A DNA stretch of 64,000 bases from Paracoccus tegillarcae (GTDB taxonomy: Bacteria; Pseudomonadota; Alphaproteobacteria; Rhodobacterales; Rhodobacteraceae): positions 2,377,001-2,441,000 of the forward strand of contig NZ_CP025408.1 in the NCBI RefSeq assembly GCF_002847305.1, given 5' to 3'. Positions 13,501 through 24,376 of the stretch are shown here, one piece after another; the first letter of the stretch is position 1; each line of letters opens with the position of its first letter. Below the pieces are notes generated by a model. It saw only the letters and a program-made list of their open reading frames with translations, was not told where the DNA came from and did not search any database. Made by a program: the position numbers and the translations under genes.

Positions 13501-14157
13501 ATGCGGATTTCACTCAAGATTGCCGTCGTTTCCATGCTGGCCCTTGCGGCCGCGGGTTGTGAAAATACCACTCAGACTCAACAAGGCGATACGGCCCGGC
13601 CGCCTGCCGCGCCCCAGATCGAGCAGCCGGCGGTTGCCGCCTTTGCCTCGGCGCCTCAGGTGAACATGCGGTGGGATGCCAATGGCGGATCGGATGCCTG
13701 GACGCAGGCGACGCTGGCGGCGCTGGATCGGCACGGGGTGCAGATCATGGATCGCGTACCTTCGGATATCAGCGCCTATTGTCCCGGCTATGCCGAGCGC
13801 GGACCTTCGGGGCGGCGGGCGTTCTGGGCCGGGCTGCTGTCGGCGCTGGCCAAGCACGAAAGCACCTATAACCCGCAGGCCAAGGGTGGCGGCGGCAAAT
13901 GGCTGGGTCTGATGCAGATCTCGCCTGCGACATGGAAGGGCTATGGCTGCTCGGGCGGGATGCTGAACGGGGCGGACAACATGGCCTGCGCCGTCAAGAT
14001 CATGTCCAGGCAGGTGTCGCGCGACAATGCCGTCGCGCGGGCCGGCGGCAACTGGCGCGGTGTGGCGCGAGACTGGGCGCCGATGCGCAGTTCCGCCAAG
14101 CGCGCCGATATTGCCGCCTGGACCAGCCAGCAAAGCTACTGCCAGTCGCCGGCCTGA
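13501..14157 (+). CDS. Lipoprotein lytic transglycosylase (SLT domain)
   Basis: A 218-residue peptidoglycan lytic enzyme. The N-terminus 'MRISLKIAVVSMLALAAAGC' is a lipoprotein signal with Cys20 as the lipid site; a Pro/Ala/Gln-rich linker runs to about residue 55. The SLT fold follows: 'SALAKHESTYNPQA' with the catalytic Glu, then 'WLGLMQISPATWKGYGC' and 'NMACAVKIM'. The ATG at 13501 is preferred to 13441 because it places the signal at the N-terminus. The stop overlaps the ATG of the next gene, so the two are likely co-translated. It should act in the periplasm at the outer membrane. Confidence 0.87.
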   Translation: MRISLKIAVVSMLALAAAGCENTTQTQQGDTARPPAAPQIEQPAVAAFASAPQVNMRWDANGGSDAWTQATLAALDRHGVQIMDRVPSDISAYCPGYAERGPSGRRAFWAGLLSALAKHESTYNPQAKGGGGKWLGLMQISPATWKGYGCSGGMLNGADNMACAVKIMSRQVSRDNAVARAGGNWRGVARDWAPMRSSAKRADIAAWTSQQSYCQSPA

Positions 14158-14522
14158 TGGCTGGCCTGACGGTTTACGACAAGATCATCAGTGACCGGGG
14201 CTCTCGCTATGCGGTCAGCGGCGGGCCTGTCCGCGACCGCGATGGGGTCGATGCACTGCTGGCGCAGTTGAAGCGATCCAAGCGGTTTCAGAAAGCCACG
14301 CATAACAGTTGGGCCGCGATCCTGTCGGGCGAGCCGGTCAAGGATGACGATGGCGAAAGCGGCGCTGGCCAGTTGATGCTGCAAATGCTGCAGCGCGCAG
14401 GCGTGGACGATCACGTCGTGATTGTCACGCGCTGGTATGGCGGCAAGCATCTGGGCGGCGATCGTTTCCGCCATGTCGCCGATGCCGTGCGGCATTATCT
14501 GGATCGGTTGGACGCGACTTAG
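14157..14522 (+). CDS. IMPACT/YigZ (UPF0029) family protein
   Basis: A 121-residue protein matching the N-terminal half of YigZ/IMPACT: 'GEPVKDDDGESGAGQLML' and 'HVVIVTRWYGGKHLGGDRF', the UPF0029 signature. Typical YigZ is about 200 residues with a second ferredoxin-like domain, which is absent here; short single-domain forms exist. The cellular role of bacterial members is not settled. Its start overlaps the transglycosylase stop (TGATG), suggesting one transcript, although a functional link between the two is not obvious. Confidence 0.8.
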   Translation: MAGLTVYDKIISDRGSRYAVSGGPVRDRDGVDALLAQLKRSKRFQKATHNSWAAILSGEPVKDDDGESGAGQLMLQMLQRAGVDDHVVIVTRWYGGKHLGGDRFRHVADAVRHYLDRLDAT

Positions 14523-14614
14523 CCCTGACCGATGCGCCGAATGCTGGGGAAAAACCTGCTGGCCTATGCCTCATGCGTCAGTAAGATGCGGACGGTATAC
14601 CAATGAGGATCTCT

Positions 14615-15904
14615 ATGGATTTCGTGACGCGGGTGGCCACCATGATCGGTGGCGTGATGGTGAAAATGCGTCGGGGTTCGGCGCCCAAGGTGCAAGCCAT
14701 GGGCGATGCGCCCGATATCCCCGAAGCGAAGAAACAGGGCGTCATGACGCTGAAAATGCCCACAGCCAAGGGCTGGGATGATGGTCACATGCCGCAGGCC
14801 GCGCCGGGGTTGCAGGTCAATGCCTTTGCCAGCGGGCTGGATCACCCGCGCTGGATCGAGGTGCTGCCCAATGGCGATGTGCTGGTGGCCGAGGCGCTGC
14901 AGATCGAACGCCCGCCCAGAGGCTTGTTTGACCGCGCGATGGTCGGCACGATGAAGCGCGCCAATGCGATGGGCCAAAGCGCCAATCGCATCTCTTTGTG
15001 GCGCGATCCTGATGGCGATGGCACCGCCGAAGAACGCCATGATTTTCTGACCGATCTGAACCAGCCCTTCGGCATGGCTCTGGTCGATGGCACGTTCTAT
15101 GTCGGCAATACCGACGGTATCGTTGCCTATCCCTATACCGATGGGGACGACCGGATCAGCGGCGAGGGCCGCAAACTGGTCGATTTCAAGCCGGGCGGTC
15201 ACTGGACCCGCAGCCTGATCGTCAGCCCCGATCGCAGCAAGATCTATGCCGGTGTCGGTTCGCAGACGAATATCGGCGATCAGGGGCTTGCCGCCGAGGA
15301 AGGGCGCGCCTCGATCTGGGAACTGGATCTGGCAACCGGCGACGCGCGAGAATTCGCAACCGGCTTGCGCAACCCGGTCGGGCTGGCGTGGGAGCCAGTC
15401 GATGGCAAGCTATGGACGGTGGTGAACGAACGCGACGGGCTGGGCGATGAGACGCCGCCTGACTATCTGACATCGGTTCAGGATGGCGGGTTCTATGGTT
15501 GGCCCTACAGCTATTGGGGCAAAATCGTCGATGATCGGGTGCAGCAGGACGCTGATCTGGTCGCCCGCGCGATCCAGCCCGACTATGCGCTTGGCGGGCA
15601 TACCGCCTCGCTTGGTCTGTGCTGGATGCCAGAAGGCACGCTGCCCGGATTTGGCGATGGGATGGTCATTGGTCAGCACGGGTCGTGGAACCGTTCGACC
15701 CTGTCGGGATACCGGCTGATCTTTGTGCCCTTTGCGGATGGCAAGCCCTCGGGTGCGCCGCACGATATTCTGTCGGGCTTTCTGTCCCCTGATGAACAGT
15801 TTTCCTATGGTCGCCCGGTTGGTGTCGTGATTGGTCCGGACGGCCACTCGCTGCTGATGGCGGATGACGTGGGCAATATCATCTGGCGGGTGACCGGCGC
15901 GTGA
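14615..15904 (+). CDS. PQQ-type sugar/sorbosone dehydrogenase family protein
   Basis: A six-bladed beta-propeller of the soluble glucose/L-sorbosone dehydrogenase family, usually PQQ-dependent. Blade motifs include 'HPRWIEVLPNGDVLVAEA', 'LVDGTFYVGNTDGIVAYPY', 'ATGLRNPVGLAWEP' and 'GDGMVIGQHGSWNRS'. The start at 14615 is chosen because TGAGGA precedes it by 6 nt; an ATG at 14603 is possible. The N-terminal 60 residues carry a weakly hydrophobic stretch rather than a clear signal peptide, so location is uncertain. It converges on bhcR with only 7 bp between stops. Substrate and PQQ use are inferred from family only. Confidence 0.8.
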   Translation: MDFVTRVATMIGGVMVKMRRGSAPKVQAMGDAPDIPEAKKQGVMTLKMPTAKGWDDGHMPQAAPGLQVNAFASGLDHPRWIEVLPNGDVLVAEALQIERPPRGLFDRAMVGTMKRANAMGQSANRISLWRDPDGDGTAEERHDFLTDLNQPFGMALVDGTFYVGNTDGIVAYPYTDGDDRISGEGRKLVDFKPGGHWTRSLIVSPDRSKIYAGVGSQTNIGDQGLAAEEGRASIWELDLATGDAREFATGLRNPVGLAWEPVDGKLWTVVNERDGLGDETPPDYLTSVQDGGFYGWPYSYWGKIVDDRVQQDADLVARAIQPDYALGGHTASLGLCWMPEGTLPGFGDGMVIGQHGSWNRSTLSGYRLIFVPFADGKPSGAPHDILSGFLSPDEQFSYGRPVGVVIGPDGHSLLMADDVGNIIWRVTGA

Positions 15905-15911
15905 GCACGCG

Positions 15912-16757
15912 CTAACCCTCGGACGCCGCAATCCCGCCGATGGCCGTTGTCAGTTCTGCCGCTGCGGCGATGACCGGGCGGCACAGCTGGTCAATCTGAT
16001 CGCGGCTGACCCGGCTGGTCGGCCCCGAGACCGAGATACCGGCAATCGCCTCGCCATTCATGTCAAAGACCGGAGCGGCGATGCAGCGCATGCCGGCGTT
16101 TCTTTCCTCGTTGTCCACCGCAAAGCCCGAGGCGCGGGCCGAGGCGAGATCGCGCAGCAATGCGGGACCGTCGGTGATGGTGTGGCTGGTATACGCGCTC
16201 AGCGCGGCATCCGTCAGCCAGCGATCCAGCCGGTCCTTGTCCATATGCGCCAATAGCGCCTTGCCGATGCCCGAACAGTGCATCGGTGAAATCGTTCCGG
16301 GCGGAAAGAAGGCCCGGATACTTGCGTGGGTCTCGACCTGGCTGAGAAACAGGACGCCGCCTTCCTTTTCGATGGCCAGATTGGCGGTCTCTCCGGTCGC
16401 CTCCATCAGCTTGCGCAGCACCGGGCGGGCGCGATCCACCAGACTTGTCCGACGCAGAAAGCGGGCACCGATGACAAAGGCGCGCGGACCGATATGCCAG
16501 ACCTGTTCGGCCGCATCGAATTCGACCAGCCCGCGACCTTCCAGCGTGACAAGGATGCGGTAGACGGTGGCTGGCGACTGGCCCATCTCGCTGGCGATGG
16601 TGGTCAGTGCCTTGCCTTGCGCCTGACTGAGATAATCCAGCACCGCCATGGCGCGATCCAGCGATTTGATGGTGTTCTGGTCGGTCTTGTCGTCCCAGTC
16701 ACGCGGCCTGCCACGGGCCCTGCGCGCACCGGTTTCACGATTATCCTGCGAGGCCAT
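15912..16757 (-). CDS. bhcR: IclR-family regulator of the beta-hydroxyaspartate cycle
   Basis: A 281-residue IclR-type regulator. An N-terminal winged helix-turn-helix (about residues 30-90, 'TTIASEMGQSPATVYRILVTL') is followed by the IclR effector domain ('GIGKALLAHM', 'GMRCIAAPVFDMNGEAIAGISVSGPTSR'). Its position, divergent from bhcA, matches the described BhcR, whose DNA binding responds to glyoxylate in Paracoccus denitrificans. Its promoter, with -35 TTGTCA and -10 TATTAT, is overlapped by a perfect palindrome, suggesting autoregulation. A charged Arg/Asp-rich N-terminal tail (about 25 residues) precedes the HTH. Confidence 0.93.
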   Translation of the reverse strand: MASQDNRETGARRARGRPRDWDDKTDQNTIKSLDRAMAVLDYLSQAQGKALTTIASEMGQSPATVYRILVTLEGRGLVEFDAAEQVWHIGPRAFVIGARFLRRTSLVDRARPVLRKLMEATGETANLAIEKEGGVLFLSQVETHASIRAFFPPGTISPMHCSGIGKALLAHMDKDRLDRWLTDAALSAYTSHTITDGPALLRDLASARASGFAVDNEERNAGMRCIAAPVFDMNGEAIAGISVSGPTSRVSRDQIDQLCRPVIAAAAELTTAIGGIAASEG

Positions 16758-16787
16758 AAACAGTCCCGGTAATTAATTGAAAGACGA

Positions 16788-16802
16788 TTTCATAATATGA
16801 AA
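16788..16802. promoter_or_regulatory. Candidate BhcR operator 1 (overlaps bhcR -10)
   Basis: TTTCAT-AAT-ATGAAA is a perfect 6-bp inverted repeat with a 3-bp centre, covering the -10 element of the bhcR promoter. IclR-type regulators bind short palindromes of about this size. Assignment to BhcR is inference from position. Confidence 0.6.
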
Positions 16803-16820
16803 AATGCAACATGCTGACAA
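16792..16820 (-). promoter_or_regulatory. Sigma-70 promoter of bhcR
   Basis: On the minus strand, TTGTCA (16815-16820) and TATTAT (16792-16797) are separated by exactly 17 bp, in the AT-rich spacer upstream of bhcR. It is one of the best consensus promoters in the window. Confidence 0.7.
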
Positions 16821-16849
16821 CGAATAATTTTTGCGACCTGAGACCAGAC

Positions 16850-16864
16850 TGAAAAACATTTTCA
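16850..16864. promoter_or_regulatory. Candidate BhcR operator 2 (bhcA side)
   Basis: TGAAAA-ACA-TTTTCA is a perfect 15-bp palindrome with the layout of the IclR-family box (TGGAAATNATTTCCA in E. coli). Its centre lies 69 bp before the bhcA start and 62 bp from operator 1. A weak -35 TTGCGA (16831) with AAACAT 17 bp downstream would place it over the bhcA -10 region; that promoter is tentative. Confidence 0.65.
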
Positions 16865-16925
16865 AAAAAGTTGGGGTGTGTGCGCAGCTTGGTTATGGTC
16901 GTCTGGCTGACCTAAGGAGATCGTC

Positions 16926-18116
16926 ATGAGCTTTCAGAATCCTGTTTTCATTCCGGGGCCGACCAATATCCCCGAGAACCTGCGCAAGGCTTGCGACATG
17001 CCGACGATCGACCATCGGTCGCCCTTGTTCGGGCAGATCCTGCATCCCGCCCGCTGCGGTGTTCGCAAGGTTCTGAAAAGCGACAAGGCCGAGGTTTTCA
17101 TCTTTCCCTCGACCGGCACCGGTGGCTGGGAAACGGCGCTTAGCAATACACTGTCGGCAGGCGACCGGGTTCTGGCCGCGCGCAACGGCATGTTTTCGCA
17201 TCGCTGGATCGACATGTGCCAGCGCCACGGGCTTGATGTCGAGATCGTCGAGACGCCCTGGGGCAGGGGACTGCCTGCGGATCGCTATGAAGAGATCCTG
17301 ACGGCGGATAAGGAACACCGGATCAAGGCGGTTCTGGCGACGCATAACGAAACCGCAACCGGCGTGACATCCGACATTGCGGCCGTGCGCCGCGCGCTGG
17401 ATGCGGCAGGCCATCCTGCGATGCTGTTCGTCGATGGTGTCAGTTCCATCGGGTCGATGGATTTTCGGTTTGACGACTGGGGTATCGATGTTGCCGTCAC
17501 CGGCTCGCAAAAGGGCTTTATGCTCAGTGCGGGTCTCGCGATTGTGGGTTTCAGTCCCAAGGCGCTGGAGGCGACCGAGACGGCGACCCTGCCGCGCACC
17601 TTCTTTGATGTGCATGACATGGCCAGGGGATACGCCAATAACGCCTATCCCTATACCCCGGCGGTGGGCCTGCTGAACGGGTTGAACATATCCTGCCGGA
17701 TGCTGCTGGATGAGGGGCTGGAGAACGTCTTTGCCCGCCACCACCGCATCGCCCAGGGCGTGCGTGCCGCGATCGGGGCATGGGGCCTGGACCTCTGCGC
17801 TGTGGATCCGTCGGTTTATTCCGACACGGTCAGCGCGATCCGTACGCCTGAGGGGTTCGACGCCACCGCCATCGTGAACCATGCGGCCAACACCTATGGC
17901 GTCGCATTCGGCACCGGGCTGGGCGAGGTTGCGGGCAAGGTGTTCCGTATCGGCCATCTGGGCAGCATGACCGATGTCATGATGTTGTCAGGGATCGCCA
18001 CCGCCGAGATGTGCATGGCCGACCTGGGGCTGGATATCCGTCTGGGTTCGGGCGTCGCAGCCGCACAGGACTATTACCGCAGCAATCCTGCAATCGCGCA
18101 CAGGGACGCCGCGTGA
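16926..18116 (+). CDS. bhcA: L-aspartate:glyoxylate aminotransferase
   Basis: First enzyme of the beta-hydroxyaspartate cycle: it makes glycine from glyoxylate using aspartate as amino donor, giving oxaloacetate. The 396-residue protein is a class V, fold-type I PLP aminotransferase of the serine-glyoxylate type ('FIPGPTNIPENLRKA', 'FPSTGTGGWETAL'). PLP Lys196 lies in 'TGSQKGFML', and Asp/Val in 'FVDGVSSIGS' contact the cofactor. AAGGAGA stands 5 nt before ATG. It begins the bhcABCD run, with a 1-base stop/start overlap into bhcB. The gene order and the whole set support this specific assignment over generic serine-glyoxylate aminotransferase. Confidence 0.95.
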   Translation: MSFQNPVFIPGPTNIPENLRKACDMPTIDHRSPLFGQILHPARCGVRKVLKSDKAEVFIFPSTGTGGWETALSNTLSAGDRVLAARNGMFSHRWIDMCQRHGLDVEIVETPWGRGLPADRYEEILTADKEHRIKAVLATHNETATGVTSDIAAVRRALDAAGHPAMLFVDGVSSIGSMDFRFDDWGIDVAVTGSQKGFMLSAGLAIVGFSPKALEATETATLPRTFFDVHDMARGYANNAYPYTPAVGLLNGLNISCRMLLDEGLENVFARHHRIAQGVRAAIGAWGLDLCAVDPSVYSDTVSAIRTPEGFDATAIVNHAANTYGVAFGTGLGEVAGKVFRIGHLGSMTDVMMLSGIATAEMCMADLGLDIRLGSGVAAAQDYYRSNPAIAHRDAA

Positions 18117-19072
18117 TGGATATCCCCAGCTATCAGGACATGCTGGCCGCGCATGAGCGGATCAGGCCGCATATCCGCCTGACCCCGGTGCTGCAATCGG
18201 ATCACCTGAACGCGCTAAGTGGCGCGCGGCTGTTCTTCAAGTGCGAAAACCTGCAAGAGCCGGGCGCATTCAAGGTGCGCGGCGCCACCAATGCGGTGTT
18301 CAGCCTTGACCGCGACCGCGCCGCTGCGGGTGTTGCGACGCATTCGTCTGGCAACCACGCGCTGTGTCTCAGCTATGCCGCCGGGTTGCGCGGCATTCCC
18401 TGCAATGTAGTCATGCCGCACACCGCGCCCGAGGCCAAAAAGGACGCGGTGCGCCGCTATGGCGGCACGATCACCGAATGCGAGCCATCGACCTCATCTC
18501 GCGAGGAAACCTTTGCCAGGGTGCAGGCCCGGACCGGCAGCGAGTTCGTGCACCCCTATAACGATCCGCGCGTGATCGCGGGACAGGGCACTTGCGCAAA
18601 GGAACTGATCGAGCAGACCGGCGGCCTGGATATCGTCACCGCGCCCATCGGTGGCGGCGGGATGATCTCGGGCACCTGCCTGACGCTGGCGAAACTGGCC
18701 CCGGATACGCAGGTCATCGCCGCAGAGCCGGAACAGGCCGACGATGCCTATCGCAGTTTCAAGGCCGGGCAGCTGATCGCAGATGATGCGCCGCAGACCG
18801 TGGCCGATGGTCTGAAAGTGCCGCTGAAGGATCTGACCTGGCATTTCGTGTCAAACCATGTGTCCGACATCCTGACCGTATCCGAGCAGGAAATCGTCGA
18901 CGCCATGCGGCTTGGCTGGAAATATCTGCGCCTCGTGATCGAGCCCTCCAGCGCCGTTCCGCTGGCCGCAATTCTCAAGAATGCCGAGCGTTTCAAGGAC
19001 AAGCGCGTCGGTGTCATCATCACTGGCGGCAATGTCGATCTTGACCGCCTGCCCTGGACCGAAGGAGCCTGA
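18116..19072 (+). CDS. bhcB: beta-Hydroxyaspartate dehydratase
   Basis: Third step of the cycle: removes water from (2R,3S)-beta-hydroxyaspartate to give iminosuccinate. A 318-residue fold-type II PLP enzyme of the threonine/serine dehydratase family, without the C-terminal ACT domain of biosynthetic threonine deaminase. PLP Lys53 is in 'PGAFKVRGA'; 'HSSGNHALCLSYAA' and 'IGGGGMISGTCL' (phosphate-binding glycines) are present. Start at 18116 overlaps the bhcA stop (TGATG); an in-frame extension to 18011 lies inside bhcA. Three bases separate it from bhcC. Confidence 0.94.
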   Translation: MDIPSYQDMLAAHERIRPHIRLTPVLQSDHLNALSGARLFFKCENLQEPGAFKVRGATNAVFSLDRDRAAAGVATHSSGNHALCLSYAAGLRGIPCNVVMPHTAPEAKKDAVRRYGGTITECEPSTSSREETFARVQARTGSEFVHPYNDPRVIAGQGTCAKELIEQTGGLDIVTAPIGGGGMISGTCLTLAKLAPDTQVIAAEPEQADDAYRSFKAGQLIADDAPQTVADGLKVPLKDLTWHFVSNHVSDILTVSEQEIVDAMRLGWKYLRLVIEPSSAVPLAAILKNAERFKDKRVGVIITGGNVDLDRLPWTEGA

Positions 19073-19075
19073 GCC

Positions 19076-20239
19076 ATGAACGCAGCCGTCAAATTCGAGG
19101 ATCTTCAGGTCGGTTTCGACATTCCCGCCCGTCCGGGCATGGACGAGGCCGACATTCAGACCCCCTGTCTGGTGCTGGATCTGGATGCGCTGGAACGCAA
19201 CATCAAGAAGATGGGCGACTATGCCCGCGCGCATGGGATGCGGCACCGGGTCCATGGCAAGATGCACAAATCCGTCGATGTGGCCAAATTGCAGGAACGT
19301 CTGGGCGGCGCGGTTGGCGTTTGCTGTCAGAAAGTGTCCGAGGCCGAGGTGTTCGTGCGCGGCGGGATCAAGGATGTGCTGGTGTCCAACCAGGTCCGCG
19401 ATCCGCAAAAGATCGACCGACTGGCGCAATTGCCGAAACTGGGCAGCAGTGTCATCGTCTGTGTCGATGATCCGGCCAATGTGGACGAACTGTCCCAGGC
19501 CGCGCAGAAGCATGGCACGGAATTGCAGGTGCTTGTCGAAATCGACTGTGGTGCCGGGCGTTGCGGTGTAACGACCTCAGAGGCCGTGGTCGAGATCGCC
19601 AAAGCCGTCGAACAGGCGCCGAACCTGCGCTTTTCGGGCATTCAGGCCTATCAGGGCGCGATGCAACATCTGGACAGCTACGAGGCGCGCAAGCAAAAGC
19701 TGGACATCGCCATCGCGCAGGTCAAGGACGCGGTCGCGGCGTTGAAAGCCGAGGGGCTGGAGGCGGAACTGGTCTCTGGCGGCGGCACCGGCAGCTATTA
19801 CTTCGAGTCCGATTCCGGCGTCTATAACGAGCTGCAATGCGGGTCCTACGCCTTCATGGATGCCGATTATGGCCGCATTCTGGATCAGGACGGCAAGCGG
19901 ATCGATCAGGGTGAATGGGAAAACGCCTTCTTTATCCTGACCCAGGTCATGAGCCATGCCAAACCGGACAAGGCCATCTGCGACGCAGGCCTCAAGGCGC
20001 AATCCGTCGATAGTGGCCTGCCGGTGATCTATGGCCGCGACGATGTCGAATATATCAAATGTTCCGATGAACACGGCGTGATTGCCGACCCGGATGGTGT
20101 GCTGAAGGTGGGCGACAAGCTGCGGCTGGTGCCGGGCCATTGCGACCCGACGGCCAATGTCCACGACTGGTATGTCGGTGTCAGGAACGGCAAGGCCGAA
20201 ACGCTGTGGCCGGTCTCGGCGCGCGGCAAGGCGTATTGA
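19076..20239 (+). CDS. bhcC: beta-Hydroxyaspartate aldolase
   Basis: Second step: condenses glycine and glyoxylate to beta-hydroxyaspartate, the carbon-joining reaction of the cycle. The 387-residue protein belongs to the D-threonine aldolase-like (alanine racemase-fold, type III) PLP enzymes. Lys62 in 'HGKMHKS' is the expected Schiff-base residue, and the C-terminal 'PGHCDPTANVHDWY' holds the divalent-metal His and Cys/Asp ligands. It follows bhcB after 3 bp and is separated from bhcD by 104 bp that contain a hairpin. Confidence 0.95.
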   Translation: MNAAVKFEDLQVGFDIPARPGMDEADIQTPCLVLDLDALERNIKKMGDYARAHGMRHRVHGKMHKSVDVAKLQERLGGAVGVCCQKVSEAEVFVRGGIKDVLVSNQVRDPQKIDRLAQLPKLGSSVIVCVDDPANVDELSQAAQKHGTELQVLVEIDCGAGRCGVTTSEAVVEIAKAVEQAPNLRFSGIQAYQGAMQHLDSYEARKQKLDIAIAQVKDAVAALKAEGLEAELVSGGGTGSYYFESDSGVYNELQCGSYAFMDADYGRILDQDGKRIDQGEWENAFFILTQVMSHAKPDKAICDAGLKAQSVDSGLPVIYGRDDVEYIKCSDEHGVIADPDGVLKVGDKLRLVPGHCDPTANVHDWYVGVRNGKAETLWPVSARGKAY

Positions 20240-20291
20240 CCAATCCCGCGCGTAGACCGGGCGGGACCCCACCGTAGATGACAGCCCCTGC

Positions 20292-20332
20292 GTCTGGCCC
20301 TCGCGTCAGGCGCAAGGCGGGCTGCCCCAGAC
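20292..20332 (+). other. Hairpin between bhcC and bhcD
   Basis: GTCTGG (20292-20297) pairs with CCAGAC (20327-20332) around a GC-rich loop that can fold further. Its 3' arm ends directly before the AGGAA ribosome site of bhcD. It could tune bhcD translation or protect the mRNA end; this is inference. Confidence 0.4.
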
Positions 20333-20343
20333 AGGAACATGAC

Positions 20344-21309
20344 ATGCTGATCGTAGCCGAACGCGAGATCGCGAACCTGATGACCCAAGAGGCCGCCTTT
20401 GACGCGGTGGAAAAGGTGTTTGCGGCGATGGCTGCGGGGGATGCCCGCAACTTCCCCGTCGTGCGAGAGGCGATCGGGCATGAGGACGCGCTTTACGGCT
20501 TCAAGGGCGGGTTCGACCGTGCGGGTCTGGCGCTTGGGCTCAAGGCGGGGGGCTATTGGCCCAACAATCTGGAAAAGCGCGGGCTGATCAATCACCAGTC
20601 GACGATCTTTCTGTTCGATCCCGATACCGGCAAGGTCAGGTCGATGGTCGGCGGCAATCTGCTGACCGCGCTGCGGACGGCGGCGGCCTCGGCCGTTTCG
20701 ATCAGCCATCTGGCGCGCGCCGATGCCCGTGTTCTGGGCATGGTCGGCGCGGGCCATCAGGCGACGTTCCAACTGCGCGCCGCGCTGAAACAGCGCAGCT
20801 TTGACAAGGTCATCGGCTGGAACCTGCATCCCGAAATGCTGCCGAACCTCGAAGCCGTGGCGACGCAGGCCGGGCTGCCCTTTGAGGCGGTCGAGCTGGA
20901 TGGCATGGTCGCGGCGGATGTGATCATCTCGATCACCTCATCCTTCGATGCGATCCTGAGCGCAGATCAGGTCAGCCCCGGCACGCATATCGCCTGCATG
21001 GGCACGGATACCAAGGGCAAGCAGGAACTCGATCCCCGCATATTGGCGGGCGCAGCGGTGTTCACTGATGAGGTTGCGCAATCGGTCGCGCTTGGCGAGG
21101 CCCAGCACGCCGTCGCCCGGGGCCTGATCAAGCCATCCGACATCACGCAGCTTGGTGCGGTGATCAACGGCACGCATGAAGGGCGCAGTTCGGATGATCA
21201 GATCACGCTGTTTGACGGCACAGGGGTCGGGTTGCAGGATCTGGCTGTGGCGGCTGCCGTGGTCGATCTGGCGGTTGAGGCAGGCGTGGCCATCGAGGTC
21301 GATTTCTGA
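20344..21309 (+). CDS. bhcD: Iminosuccinate reductase
   Basis: Last step: reduces iminosuccinate with NADH to L-aspartate, closing the cycle so that aspartate can donate its amino group again to glyoxylate. A 321-residue member of the ornithine cyclodeaminase/mu-crystallin family, with the Rossmann 'GMVGAGHQATFQLRA' (about residues 136-150) and the active-site region 'GLALGLKAGGYWPNN'. The start at 20344 has AGGAA 6 nt upstream; the frame extends to 20278 without support. It ends the operon; an imperfect stem-loop follows before murB. Confidence 0.94.
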   Translation: MLIVAEREIANLMTQEAAFDAVEKVFAAMAAGDARNFPVVREAIGHEDALYGFKGGFDRAGLALGLKAGGYWPNNLEKRGLINHQSTIFLFDPDTGKVRSMVGGNLLTALRTAAASAVSISHLARADARVLGMVGAGHQATFQLRAALKQRSFDKVIGWNLHPEMLPNLEAVATQAGLPFEAVELDGMVAADVIISITSSFDAILSADQVSPGTHIACMGTDTKGKQELDPRILAGAAVFTDEVAQSVALGEAQHAVARGLIKPSDITQLGAVINGTHEGRSSDDQITLFDGTGVGLQDLAVAAAVVDLAVEAGVAIEVDF

Positions 21310-21329
21310 GGCGATGATCGCTGCGGGCG

Positions 21330-21375
21330 GCCCGTCCCGCCTGGCCAAGATCACCCACGACCAAGGCGGACGGGC
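21330..21375 (+). terminator. Stem-loop after bhcD (weak terminator candidate)
   Basis: GCCCGTCC plus GCCTGG (21330-21344) pair with CCAAGGC plus GGACGGGC (21361-21375), with small bulges. No T-run follows, so termination is uncertain and some read-through into murB is possible. Confidence 0.4.
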
Positions 21376-21446
21376 GGGATGGCCCACGCCGTGCCGCGCT
21401 ACACCATCATGTTGACGACCTGCGCGGGCAGCACTACCAGCAGCGG

Positions 21447-22391
21447 ATGACCCAGAATTTACCCGATACTCGCGGCGTGCTGACGCCGAACCGGCCGCTG
21501 GATGGCCTGACATGGCTGCGTGTTGGCGGCCCCGCCGACTGGCTGTTCCAGCCTGCCGATCCCGAAGATCTGGCCTCGTTCCTTGCGCAGCTGGAACCGG
21601 ATGTCCCGGTCTTTCCGATCGGTGTTGGCAGCAATCTGATCGTTCGCGACGGCGGCATCCGCGGTGTGGTGATCCGGCTCGGTCGCGCGTTCAATGGCAT
21701 CGCGGTTGAAGGCGACACGGTGACCGCCGGCGCTGCGGCGCTGGATGCGCATGTGGCCCGGCGCGCGGCTGATGCCGGCCTGGATTTGACCTTCTTGCGC
21801 ACCATTCCGGGCAGTATCGGCGGCGCCGTGCGGATGAACGCCGGCTGTTATGGCAGCTATGTCGCCGACCATCTGATCGAGGCCGTGGCCGTCACGCGCG
21901 ACGGCCAGCAGGTCACGCTTGGCCCCGATGATCTGCGCTTTGCCTATCGCCATTCCGAACTGCCGGCTGATTGGGTTCTGACCGAGGCGCGCTTTCGCGC
22001 CGGCAAGGGCGATCCGGATGCGCTGCACGCGAAGATGGCGGATCAACTGGCCAAACGCGACGAAACACAGCCGACCAAGGATCGCAGCGCCGGATCCACC
22101 TTTCGCAATCCCGCCGGTTTCAGCAGCACCGGACGCGCAGACGATACGCATGAGTTGAAGGCCTGGTCGCTCATTGATGCGGCAGGTCTGCGCGGGCATA
22201 GCTGGGGCGGGGCGCAGATGTCGGAAAAGCACCCGAATTTCCTGCTGAACACAGGCGGTGCGACGGCGGCCGAGCTAGAGGAACTGGGCGAACTGGTGCG
22301 CCGCCGCGTGATGGAAGAAAGCGGCCTTGATCTGCAATGGGAGGTGATCCGCGTTGGCGATCCCCTGCCCGAGGACGCCCCGGCGGACTGA
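21447..22391 (+). CDS. murB: UDP-N-acetylenolpyruvoylglucosamine reductase
   Basis: FAD/NADPH enzyme completing UDP-MurNAc synthesis in the cytoplasm. The 314 residues include the FAD domain ('[19 protein letters not shown]', '[16 protein letters not shown]'), the catalytic Ser in '[11 protein letters not shown]' and the C-terminal Glu region '[15 protein letters not shown]'. It is a type I MurB. In most Rhodobacterales murC (and murG) stand directly upstream; here the preceding gene is bhcD. The 137-bp gap before murB shows no strong Shine-Dalgarno. It leads murB-ddl-ftsQ-ftsA-ftsZ. Confidence 0.96.
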
Positions 22392-22500
22392 TGCGAAAAA
22401 AATGGGCTTTTGCGATTCAGGCTTTGCGGCTAAGGTAAGTGTGTAGTTAATTATTATCGCGCAGGATCGGGTCGAACCCGGCCGTGCGAAACCGAAAGAA

Positions 22501-22517
22501 GCCCGGACAAACCGGGC
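22501..22517 (+). other. Hairpin in the ddl leader
   Basis: GCCCGG-ACAAA-CCGGGC is a perfect 6-bp stem 15 nt before the ddl start. A second small hairpin, CGGGT-CGA-ACCCG, lies just upstream (about 22468-22480). The AT-rich TTAATTATTAT at 22447 may be part of an internal promoter. Confidence 0.4.
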
Positions 22518-22532
22518 GCGAAAGGCGAAATC

Positions 22533-23468
22533 GTGGCGGGCAGGTCGAGCAGGACAGCCCACACCGTAGCCGTTCTGATGGGCGGACCCTCGGCTGAACG
22601 CGAGGTGTCTCTGTCCTCGGGGCGCGAATGCGCAAATGCGCTGCGGGTGGCGGGTTACACAGTCATCGAGGTCGAACTCGGGTCGCAGCGCGGCGCCGAA
22701 ATCGTGACACGGCTTGCCGATGTCGCGCCTGATGTCGTGTTCAATGCGCTGCACGGCCCCCTGGGCGAGGATGGCTGTGTGCAGGGCGTGCTGGAATGGC
22801 TGGGTCTGCCCTATACACATTCGGGTGTGCTGGCTTCGGCGCTGGCGATGGACAAGACGCGGGCCAAGGATGCGTTTCGCGCGGCTTGCCTGCCGGTGGT
22901 CGAAAGCATCATCGCCGATCGAGACGAGGTGCGCAGCCGCCATGTGATGCCGGCGCCCTATGTGGTCAAGCCGAATGACGAGGGCTCCAGTGTCGGGGTG
23001 TATATCGTGCATGCCGAGAATAACGGCCCGCCTGCGCTGGACGACAAGATGCCGTCGCGGGTCATGGTCGAAACCTATGCGCCGGGGCGCGAGCTGACCA
23101 CCACCGTGATGGGCGACCGGGCGCTGGAGGTGACCGAGATCATCGTCGAAGGCTGGTACGATTACGACGCCAAGTACAAACCCGGCGGCTCGCGCCATGT
23201 GATCCCCGCCGAAATCCCCGCCGAGATCCGCTCTGCCTGCCTGGACATGGCAGTGCGCGCCCATGACGCCTTGGGCTGCAACGGCCTCAGCCGCACCGAT
23301 TTCCGTTGGGATGAAACGCGCGGTCTGGACGGGCTGATCATCCTCGAGGTGAACACCCAGCCCGGCATGACGCCCACCTCGCTGGCGCCCGAACAGGCTG
23401 CCCATGCGGGTCATGATTTCCCCGCGCTGATGCGCTGGATGATCGAGGATGCGCTATGTCGAGCATGA
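22533..23468 (+). CDS. ddl: D-alanine--D-alanine ligase
   Basis: ATP-grasp enzyme making the D-Ala-D-Ala dipeptide for peptidoglycan. Family motifs: '[17 protein letters not shown]' at the N-terminus, '[17 protein letters not shown]' (ATP binding), '[17 protein letters not shown]', and '[20 protein letters not shown]' with the Mg ligands. The 311-residue frame begins with GTG at 22533; an AAGGCG stands 7 nt before it. Its 3' end overlaps ftsQ by up to 13 bp, showing tight coupling to the division genes. Confidence 0.96.
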
Positions 23469-24376
23469 CCGATCACAACGCACCGCCCAAGCGCAAGCGC
23501 GATCCCGCGCCCTCGCGTCTGGCCTATCGGCTGGAGCGGATGTGGCTGACGCCGCTTTATCGGCGGGTGTTTCGCGTCGGGCTGCCGGCCTTTGTGCTGG
23601 CCATGAGCGTGGGCATCTGGCTGTCGGACGAGGATCGCCGCGCGGCGCTGTCGGATGGCATCACCGGGATGGTCGACAAGGTCCAAAGCCGCGACGAATT
23701 TCAGGTCCGCATGATGACGGTCGAGGGTGCCTCGCCCGCGGTCGACAAGGCTTTGCGGGCGATGCTGCCGGTCGATCTGCCGGCCTCTAGTTTTGACATC
23801 GACCTGACCGCGCTGCGGCTGCAGGTGATCGCGCTGGATGCAGTTGAAAAGATCGAATTGCGGATCAAGCCGGGTGGCATCCTGTCGGCGGTGGTGACCG
23901 AACGAGTGCCGGTGATGCTGTGGCGTCATGCGCGCGGTATCGACATGCTGGACAAGGCAGGCCACCGCGTTGCCGGTGTGACCGCGCGCGAGATGCGCCC
24001 TGACCTGCCCATTATCGCCGGAGACGGGGCCGATCAGGCCGCCCATGAGGCGCTGGCGCTGATCGACGCCGCCGGCCCGGTCCTGCCGCGCCTGCGCGGT
24101 TTGCAGCGGCAGGGCGAGCGGCGATGGGATGTGGTGCTGGATCATGGCCAGCGCATCCTTTTGCCGGAAACCGATGCCGTTCGCGCCCTTGAGCGGGCCA
24201 TAGAGATGCAGCGTCAGCAGGATCTGCTGGGCCGCGATATCAGCGTGATCGACCTGCGCGACCCGGCCCGGCCGGTGGTTCGTATGGGCGTCGACGCACG
24301 CAACACAATTCGCGGCGCGCGCGGCCTGCCCCTGCTGGGGCCGGACGGGCAGCTTTTGCCGGATGATGAGGGATAG
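23456..24376 (+). CDS. ftsQ: Cell division protein FtsQ
   Basis: Bitopic divisome protein linking early and late division proteins. A cytoplasmic basic tail of about 40 residues is followed by one membrane helix ('[16 protein letters not shown]', about 42-58), then the POTRA domain (about 80-150) and the FtsQ beta domain. The 306-residue count starts at 23456, 13 bp inside ddl; ATG at 23465 overlapping the ddl stop as ATGA is equally plausible. A proline/basic-rich N-terminus is normal for alphaproteobacteria. It is followed by ftsA after 15 bp. Confidence 0.95.

Follow-up and report, generated by a model that had tools for sequence, protein, structure and literature searches.

A 64,000-nucleotide stretch of the Paracoccus tegillarcae genome (contig NZ_CP025408.1, forward-strand positions 2,377,001 to 2,441,000; hereafter the window, whose first letter is position 1) carries at 15912–21309 the regulator gene bhcR on the minus strand and the genes bhcABCD on the plus strand, all five intact. 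We regard it as almost certain that these genes form a complete and functional β-hydroxyaspartate cycle operon, for which we propose regulatory roles of two candidate BhcR operators and of a hairpin between bhcC and bhcD. The enzyme steps are assigned by orthology with the characterized P. denitrificans system, and conservation across related loci points to the putative roles of the operators and the hairpin. The operon is closer to the copies of marine roseobacters than to that of P. denitrificans; it belongs to a roseobacter-type bhc lineage and not to the P. denitrificans type.

A sequence-only reading of the window had placed four Bhc enzymes and an IclR regulator here in the known order, and at the same coordinates all five proteins scored above the cut-offs of their NCBIfam equivalog models. 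These are bhcR, the IclR-family regulator of the cycle (15912–16757, minus strand, 281 aa; NF045644, 400 bits, cut-off 350); bhcA, L-aspartate–glyoxylate aminotransferase (16926–18116, plus strand, 396 aa; NF045640, 755 bits, cut-off 650); bhcB, β-hydroxyaspartate dehydratase (18116–19072, plus strand, 318 aa; NF045641, 576 bits, cut-off 550); bhcC, 3-hydroxy-D-aspartate aldolase (19076–20239, plus strand, 387 aa; NF045642, 764 bits, cut-off 690); and bhcD, iminosuccinate reductase (20344–21309, plus strand, 321 aa; NF045643, 577 bits, cut-off 500). The enzyme genes follow one another in the order A-B-C-D on one strand, with the bhcA stop and the bhcB ATG sharing one base, and bhcR lies divergently on the opposite strand, 168 bp from bhcA. 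The same gene order with a divergent bhcR was found in most loci compared. The start of bhcD was set at 20344 by alignment with the solved enzyme 6RQA; the mechanical open reading frame (ORF) opens at 20278. The predicted cofactor lysines are in place, Lys196 of BhcA in GSQKG, Lys53 of BhcB in GAFKVRG and Lys62 of BhcC in HGKMHK, as is the Rossmann motif of BhcD, GAGHQA.

Given that every enzyme belongs to a broad superfamily (Aminotran_5, PALP, Ala_racemase_N/D-ser_dehydrat and OCD_Mu_crystall in Pfam) and that BhcB lies only 26 bits above its cut-off, we weighed whether the locus might be a generic cluster of pyridoxal phosphate enzymes and a cyclodeaminase (serine-glyoxylate aminotransferase, threonine dehydratase, D-threonine aldolase and ornithine cyclodeaminase) that does not act as a cycle. 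The next-best NCBIfam families reached 166 (BhcA), 348 (BhcB), 29 (BhcC), 184 (BhcD) and 194 (BhcR) bits, each below its own cut-off; for BhcB, which has the narrowest margin, the runner-up was threo-3-hydroxy-L-aspartate ammonia-lyase, with a cut-off of 452. The gene order and the divergent bhcR also match other loci. On these score margins the generic-family reading was rejected, and we consider it extremely improbable. The assignment to generic dehydratase, cyclodeaminase or aminotransferase clades that the sequence-only reading had named as evidence against itself was not found, as the Bhc cut-offs were passed and those of the generic families listed were failed. The identification of the five bhc genes is far beyond chance. 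A tree of BhcB with six PALP paralogs from the same genome placed none of them inside the BhcB clade and was given no weight; blastp (E 1e-5) aligned just two of these six ORFs with BhcB, wrong frames probably having been taken for others, and the matching BhcA tree had two outgroups only.

Among solved structures, the top relative of BhcC was the D-3-hydroxyaspartate aldolase 6QKB (80% identity over 387 positions) and that of BhcD the iminosuccinate reductase 6RQA (68% over 321 positions), both of which we take to be P. denitrificans proteins. The top matches of the other three were 6PK1, a serine-glyoxylate aminotransferase (BhcA), 6LUT, a probable serine racemase (BhcB), and the ligand domain of the acetate operon repressor IclR (BhcR); no structure named BhcA, BhcB or BhcR was among the matches listed (for BhcB, 60 of 117). 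E. coli IclR belongs to the same regulator family as BhcR and binds the same ligand class. In an alignment with IclR inspected by eye, eight of the nine ligand-site residues in Table 1 of PMC11323563 are shared with P. denitrificans BhcR; the ninth is Ser in place of Thr at IclR position 143.

The cycle had been described in Paracoccus before, and our counts bear out that it is ordinary in the genus: BhcC exceeds its cut-off in 78 of 125 genus genomes, P. tegillarcae included. Nor is the locus rare beyond it. A scan of named bacterial genomes returned at least 587 stretches with a relative, 80 of which were retained. In a FastTree phylogeny of concatenated BhcA-D from 89 loci, 21 of the 27 Paracoccus loci other than the window formed a single clade. 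In 20 loci of this P. denitrificans-type clade the bhcC stop and the bhcD ATG share one base, and in the remaining locus they abut; the 6QKB and 6RQA proteins fall inside the clade (support 1.0 for the set of seven). The remaining six Paracoccus loci and the window were placed among roseobacters and relatives. By type the window locus differs from that of P. denitrificans: it sits in the other clade, and its bhcC and bhcD, unlike the overlapping or abutting genes of the P. denitrificans type, are separated by 104 bp with a hairpin. Tropicimonas marinistellae (L009) and Palleronia sediminis (L012) are among its nearest rows by path in this tree, and their loci have a bhcC–bhcD gap of similar length with a hairpin and both palindromes described below at the same places. 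Across the genus, BhcD was detected at E 1e-60 in 77 of the 125 genomes; it is at least 83% identical to the window protein in ten of them, the window counted, and at most 73% identical in the other 67.

Quick IQ-TREE topology tests (LG+G4; 50 of the 89 rows) rejected the grouping of the 28 Paracoccus rows, the window among them, as one clade (p-AU 9.6e-6). Placing the window in a single clade with the other six Paracoccus rows of the roseobacter type was also rejected (p-AU 0.003), in a set that includes P. homiensis, whose row groups with Ruegeria. Horizontal transfer is the simpler reading of the roseobacter-like placement. Ancient paralogy followed by differential loss in Paracoccus could produce it too: a pair of bhc loci (L040, L042) occurs in Rhodobacteraceae bacterium KLH11, BhcD is of different types in two strains of Ruegeria lacuscaerulensis (65% versus 81%; L035, L036), and the highest BhcA-D identity to the window is that of a Paracoccus row (L153, 86%), which cautions against too simple a lineage reading. 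We nevertheless consider paralogy and loss unlikely, since none of the ten roseobacter-type genomes of the genus has a second BhcD at E 1e-60 and the roseobacter-type Paracoccus rows do not form one clade. Separately, a contig filed under the cyanobacterium Spirulina subsalsa FACHB-351 (L041) carries bhcB and bhcC 80–84% identical to those of the window, likely through contamination by a companion bacterium.

The 168-bp region between bhcR and bhcA contains a pair of perfect TGAAA-N5-TTTCA palindromes, spaced 72 bp apart, which we treat as candidate BhcR operators, neither with an assigned strand. O_R (TGAAAGACGATTTCA, 16778–16792) lies at the -10/start region of a predicted bhcR promoter, and O_A (TGAAAAACATTTTCA, 16850–16864) lies upstream of bhcA and is followed by an A-tract. 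The predicted bhcR promoter, TTGTCA-17-TATTAT (16792–16820, minus strand; 10 of 12), has a -10 hexamer that shares one base with O_R and is weak evidence alone, because two promoter-like sites were found against 1.6 expected by chance. A putative weak bhcA promoter, TTGGGG-17-TATGGT (16871–16899, plus strand), was picked out by eye and lies below the promoter-scan threshold. The perfect palindrome occurs five times in the 3.95-Mb genome, two of the copies being those at the bhc locus, and a reversed control pattern does not occur. Of the other three copies, one (612001) falls where two convergent ORFs end, which we read as carbonic anhydrase-like and mutase-like, and two are within ORFs that, from their translations, we take to be PurD-like (3511511) and vWA-like (3708951). 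None of the three sits at an evident promoter position and we therefore propose no wider BhcR regulon, considering perfect palindromes only. The E. coli IclR consensus, which we take to be TGGAAATNATTTCCA, is close to the bhc-locus motif.

The palindrome recurs across the compared loci. Of 67 intergenic regions, 55 contain a site that matches at nine or more of the ten arm positions, against a mean of 2.4 and a maximum of 4 in 30 shuffle sets; 26 of the 67 had two such sites anywhere in the region (shuffle mean 0.03, highest 1). Counts by site were made in 30 roseobacter-type loci hand-chosen from a 41-leaf FastTree clade; no BhcR was obtained from two of the 11 omitted leaves, L056 and L058, and the other nine were L008, L010, L011, L022, L042, L051, L059, L062 and L069. 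At a threshold of 8/10, all 30 selected loci have O_R and 22 have O_A; 200 shuffle sets gave averages of 1.6 and 1.2 and maxima of 6 and 5, respectively. The bhcR-side site starts 145–150 bases before bhcA in 30/30, and the distance between the starts of O_R and O_A is 71–73 bp in all 22 loci with both. The 5-base spacer varies and the arms are constant, except for the first T of the O_R right arm. Fixed positions and a variable spacer are the strongest arguments for the predicted operators. A near-invariant TATGAAAAA was also observed after the bhcR-side palindrome (16795–16804 and equivalents) in 28 anchored roseobacter-type loci; it may represent a third half-site or the -10 region of bhcR.

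The P. denitrificans-type loci present a different picture. In the 19 of 21 with a usable region, a bhcA-side site scored at least 8 in 11 and at least 7 in all 19; most are TGGAAA/TTTCCA- or GCGAAA-like variants, a shape that L146 lacks. A bhcR-side site, which is a full palindrome in the window, reached 8/10 in only 2 of the 19, a count that shuffles also attain (mean 0.6, highest 4). Two genomes of the genus on this usual side carry features of the other: G076 (L174) has O_R at 9/10, O_A at 8/10 and a 17-bp bhcC–bhcD gap, and G011 (L175) has O_A at 9/10 and a 73-bp gap with a hairpin. The operator and gap features therefore split the two types uncleanly.

The 104-bp intercistronic region between bhcC and bhcD (20240–20343, plus strand) contains a predicted GC-rich hairpin at 20282–20324. 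Of 59 bhcC–bhcD gaps folded, 32 gave z of -2.0 or lower (60 shuffles each). The hairpin alignment comprises 20 gaps hand-picked from roseobacter-type loci, poorly aligning ones (e.g. L018, L024, L026 and L028) being left out; several of the left-out gaps fold into hairpins of different sequence. Over this alignment 94.4% of cells preserve an 8-pair stem, and five of the eight pairs show compensatory changes. The covariation score was matched by 0/500 shuffles and the count of compensatory pairs by 3/500, and all slid controls were lower. No Rfam match was found in 14000–24000, and the terminators reported were no more than in shuffles. The conserved stem suggests that the hairpin may act in message stability or in partial termination before bhcD. 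Two of the loci compared, L011 and L048, have bhcC–bhcD gaps of approximately 1.6–1.7 kb, long enough for an inserted gene.

Several observations weigh against functional operators and a functional hairpin. The window gap itself folds at -43.6 kcal/mol with z -1.5, which is not significant alone. O_A falls below 8/10 in 8 of the 30 selected loci, and in 7 of the ten same-genus roseobacter-type genomes (it scores at least 8 in the other three), all ten of which have O_R at 9 or 10. Among the nine further members of the wider clade, O_A reaches 8/10 in eight and O_R in two, falling short in seven; the O_R search range was shortened for L051, L062 and L069, and with other region boundaries bhcR-side sites of at least 8/10 were seen in L011 (at a different distance), L051 and L062. 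Moreover, the palindrome counts are not independent because the motif was noticed in the window before it was counted, score decided which sites were taken, and the loci are related; picking at 8 of 10 favors conserved arms, promoter-like sites are as frequent in shuffles, and the hairpin set was chosen by hand. Much of this would suit a reading in which both palindromes and the hairpin arose by chance or persist neutrally from a common ancestor, with BhcR binding elsewhere in the intergenic region. We find that reading doubtful in view of the fixed positions of both sites, the variation of the spacer between near-constant arms, the rarity of the perfect palindrome in the genome, and a covariation score that neither shuffles nor slid controls reached.

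A more far-reaching account, which we hold to be somewhat less probable than not, is that a minority of Paracoccus, the window genome included, carries a separately acquired roseobacter-type bhc operon with a two-operator BhcR switch, whose sites at the bhcR promoter and upstream of bhcA are about seven helical turns apart, and a hairpin that sets bhcD output apart from that of bhcABC. In the usual Paracoccus type the bhcA-side palindrome alone would remain, and the overlapping stop and start would link translation of bhcD to that of bhcC.

In the β-hydroxyaspartate cycle BhcA acts first, followed by BhcC, BhcB and BhcD. In P. tegillarcae, glyoxylate would be supplied from glycolate by a GlcDEF-like oxidase encoded elsewhere in the genome. 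BhcA would convert glyoxylate to glycine by transamination with L-aspartate as donor; BhcC would join glycine and a second glyoxylate to give 3-hydroxyaspartate; BhcB would dehydrate this to iminosuccinate; and BhcD would reduce iminosuccinate to aspartate, for a predicted net conversion of two glyoxylate to oxaloacetate with zero CO2 lost. BhcR would serve as the glyoxylate sensor. The operator layout suggests that BhcR bound to O_R, at the bhcR promoter, would repress its own gene, and that BhcR bound to O_A, upstream of the weak bhcA promoter, would activate the operon, while the hairpin may tune the bhcD message in dose or stability.

The rest of the genome fits this scheme in part. Contiguous glcD-, glcE- and glcF-like genes lie at approximately 320.7–324.5 kb (L132, 4706–8483), and GlcF exceeds its NCBIfam cut-off (431 bits, cut-off 333). 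Speaking against the putative glycolate oxidase, the best matches of GlcD (520 bits, cut-off 897, and 439 bits, cut-off 568) and GlcE (231 bits, cut-off 284) stay below their cut-offs, and no GntR-type glcR-like neighbor is evident beside glcDEF among ORFs of at least 200 aa. This differs from P. denitrificans, where glcR adjoins glcDEF according to PMC11323563, and control of glcDEF may differ as well. No glyoxylate carboligase (Gcl) exceeded its cut-off (best 359 bits, cut-off 711), and the genome encodes malate synthase G (1022 bits against a cut-off of 989); the bhc cycle is therefore likely the route for net growth on glyoxylate.

Downstream, 137 bp (21310–21446) separate the end of bhcD from murB, which is followed by ddl and by ORFs that we take to be ftsQ-, ftsA-, ftsZ- and lpxC-like; MurB and Ddl were confirmed by family search. 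In the window genome murC lies approximately 84 kb downstream of murB, and in the same-genus genome G124 (L158) a single ORF separates murB from an upstream ORF that we read as murC. In 24 other same-genus genomes with BhcC above its cut-off and MurB on one contig, the two were within 40 kb in none (0/24); in the rest they are on different contigs. The positions of murB and murC mark a local rearrangement, not a functional link, with the division cluster split in the window genome. The neighborhood also differs from that of the roseobacter-type loci: none of ten window flanking genes was found in the flanks (up to 10 kb) of L008–L087. On the other side, the ORF at 14603–15904 beside bhcR resembles a PQQ-type sugar dehydrogenase from a reading of its translation, and no NCBIfam model reaches its cut-off for it.

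PMC11323563 reports that bhcR and bhcA of P. denitrificans are divergently transcribed, that BhcR activates the bhc cluster in vivo and that glyoxylate weakens its DNA binding in vitro. The window locus has the same five genes by equivalog model and the same divergent arrangement. IclR represses aceBAK, whereas BhcR is reported there as an activator of bhcABCD. A dual BhcR site is proposed in that paper, yet one palindrome is named, upstream of the bhcA -35. The two bhc lineages, the paired palindromes and the bhcC–bhcD hairpin are unreported in the literature searched by title and abstract starts, PMC11323563 aside, a scope that mostly excludes subscription papers.

The pathway is known and common in the genus; the contribution of this locus is that it offers a natural test of the dual-site question raised in PMC11323563. 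The dual-site model is directly testable because two palindromes stand at both places that the proposal requires, and related loci have one or both. Beyond the sequence-only reading, the analysis brings in the roseobacter-type lineage, the paired candidate operators and the bhcC–bhcD hairpin, together with a measure of how common the cycle is in the genus. The bhcC–bhcD junction takes two forms, a gap with a hairpin and an overlapping stop and start. This suggests a difference in bhcD dosing between the two types, which would be relevant for transplanting the cycle into other hosts.

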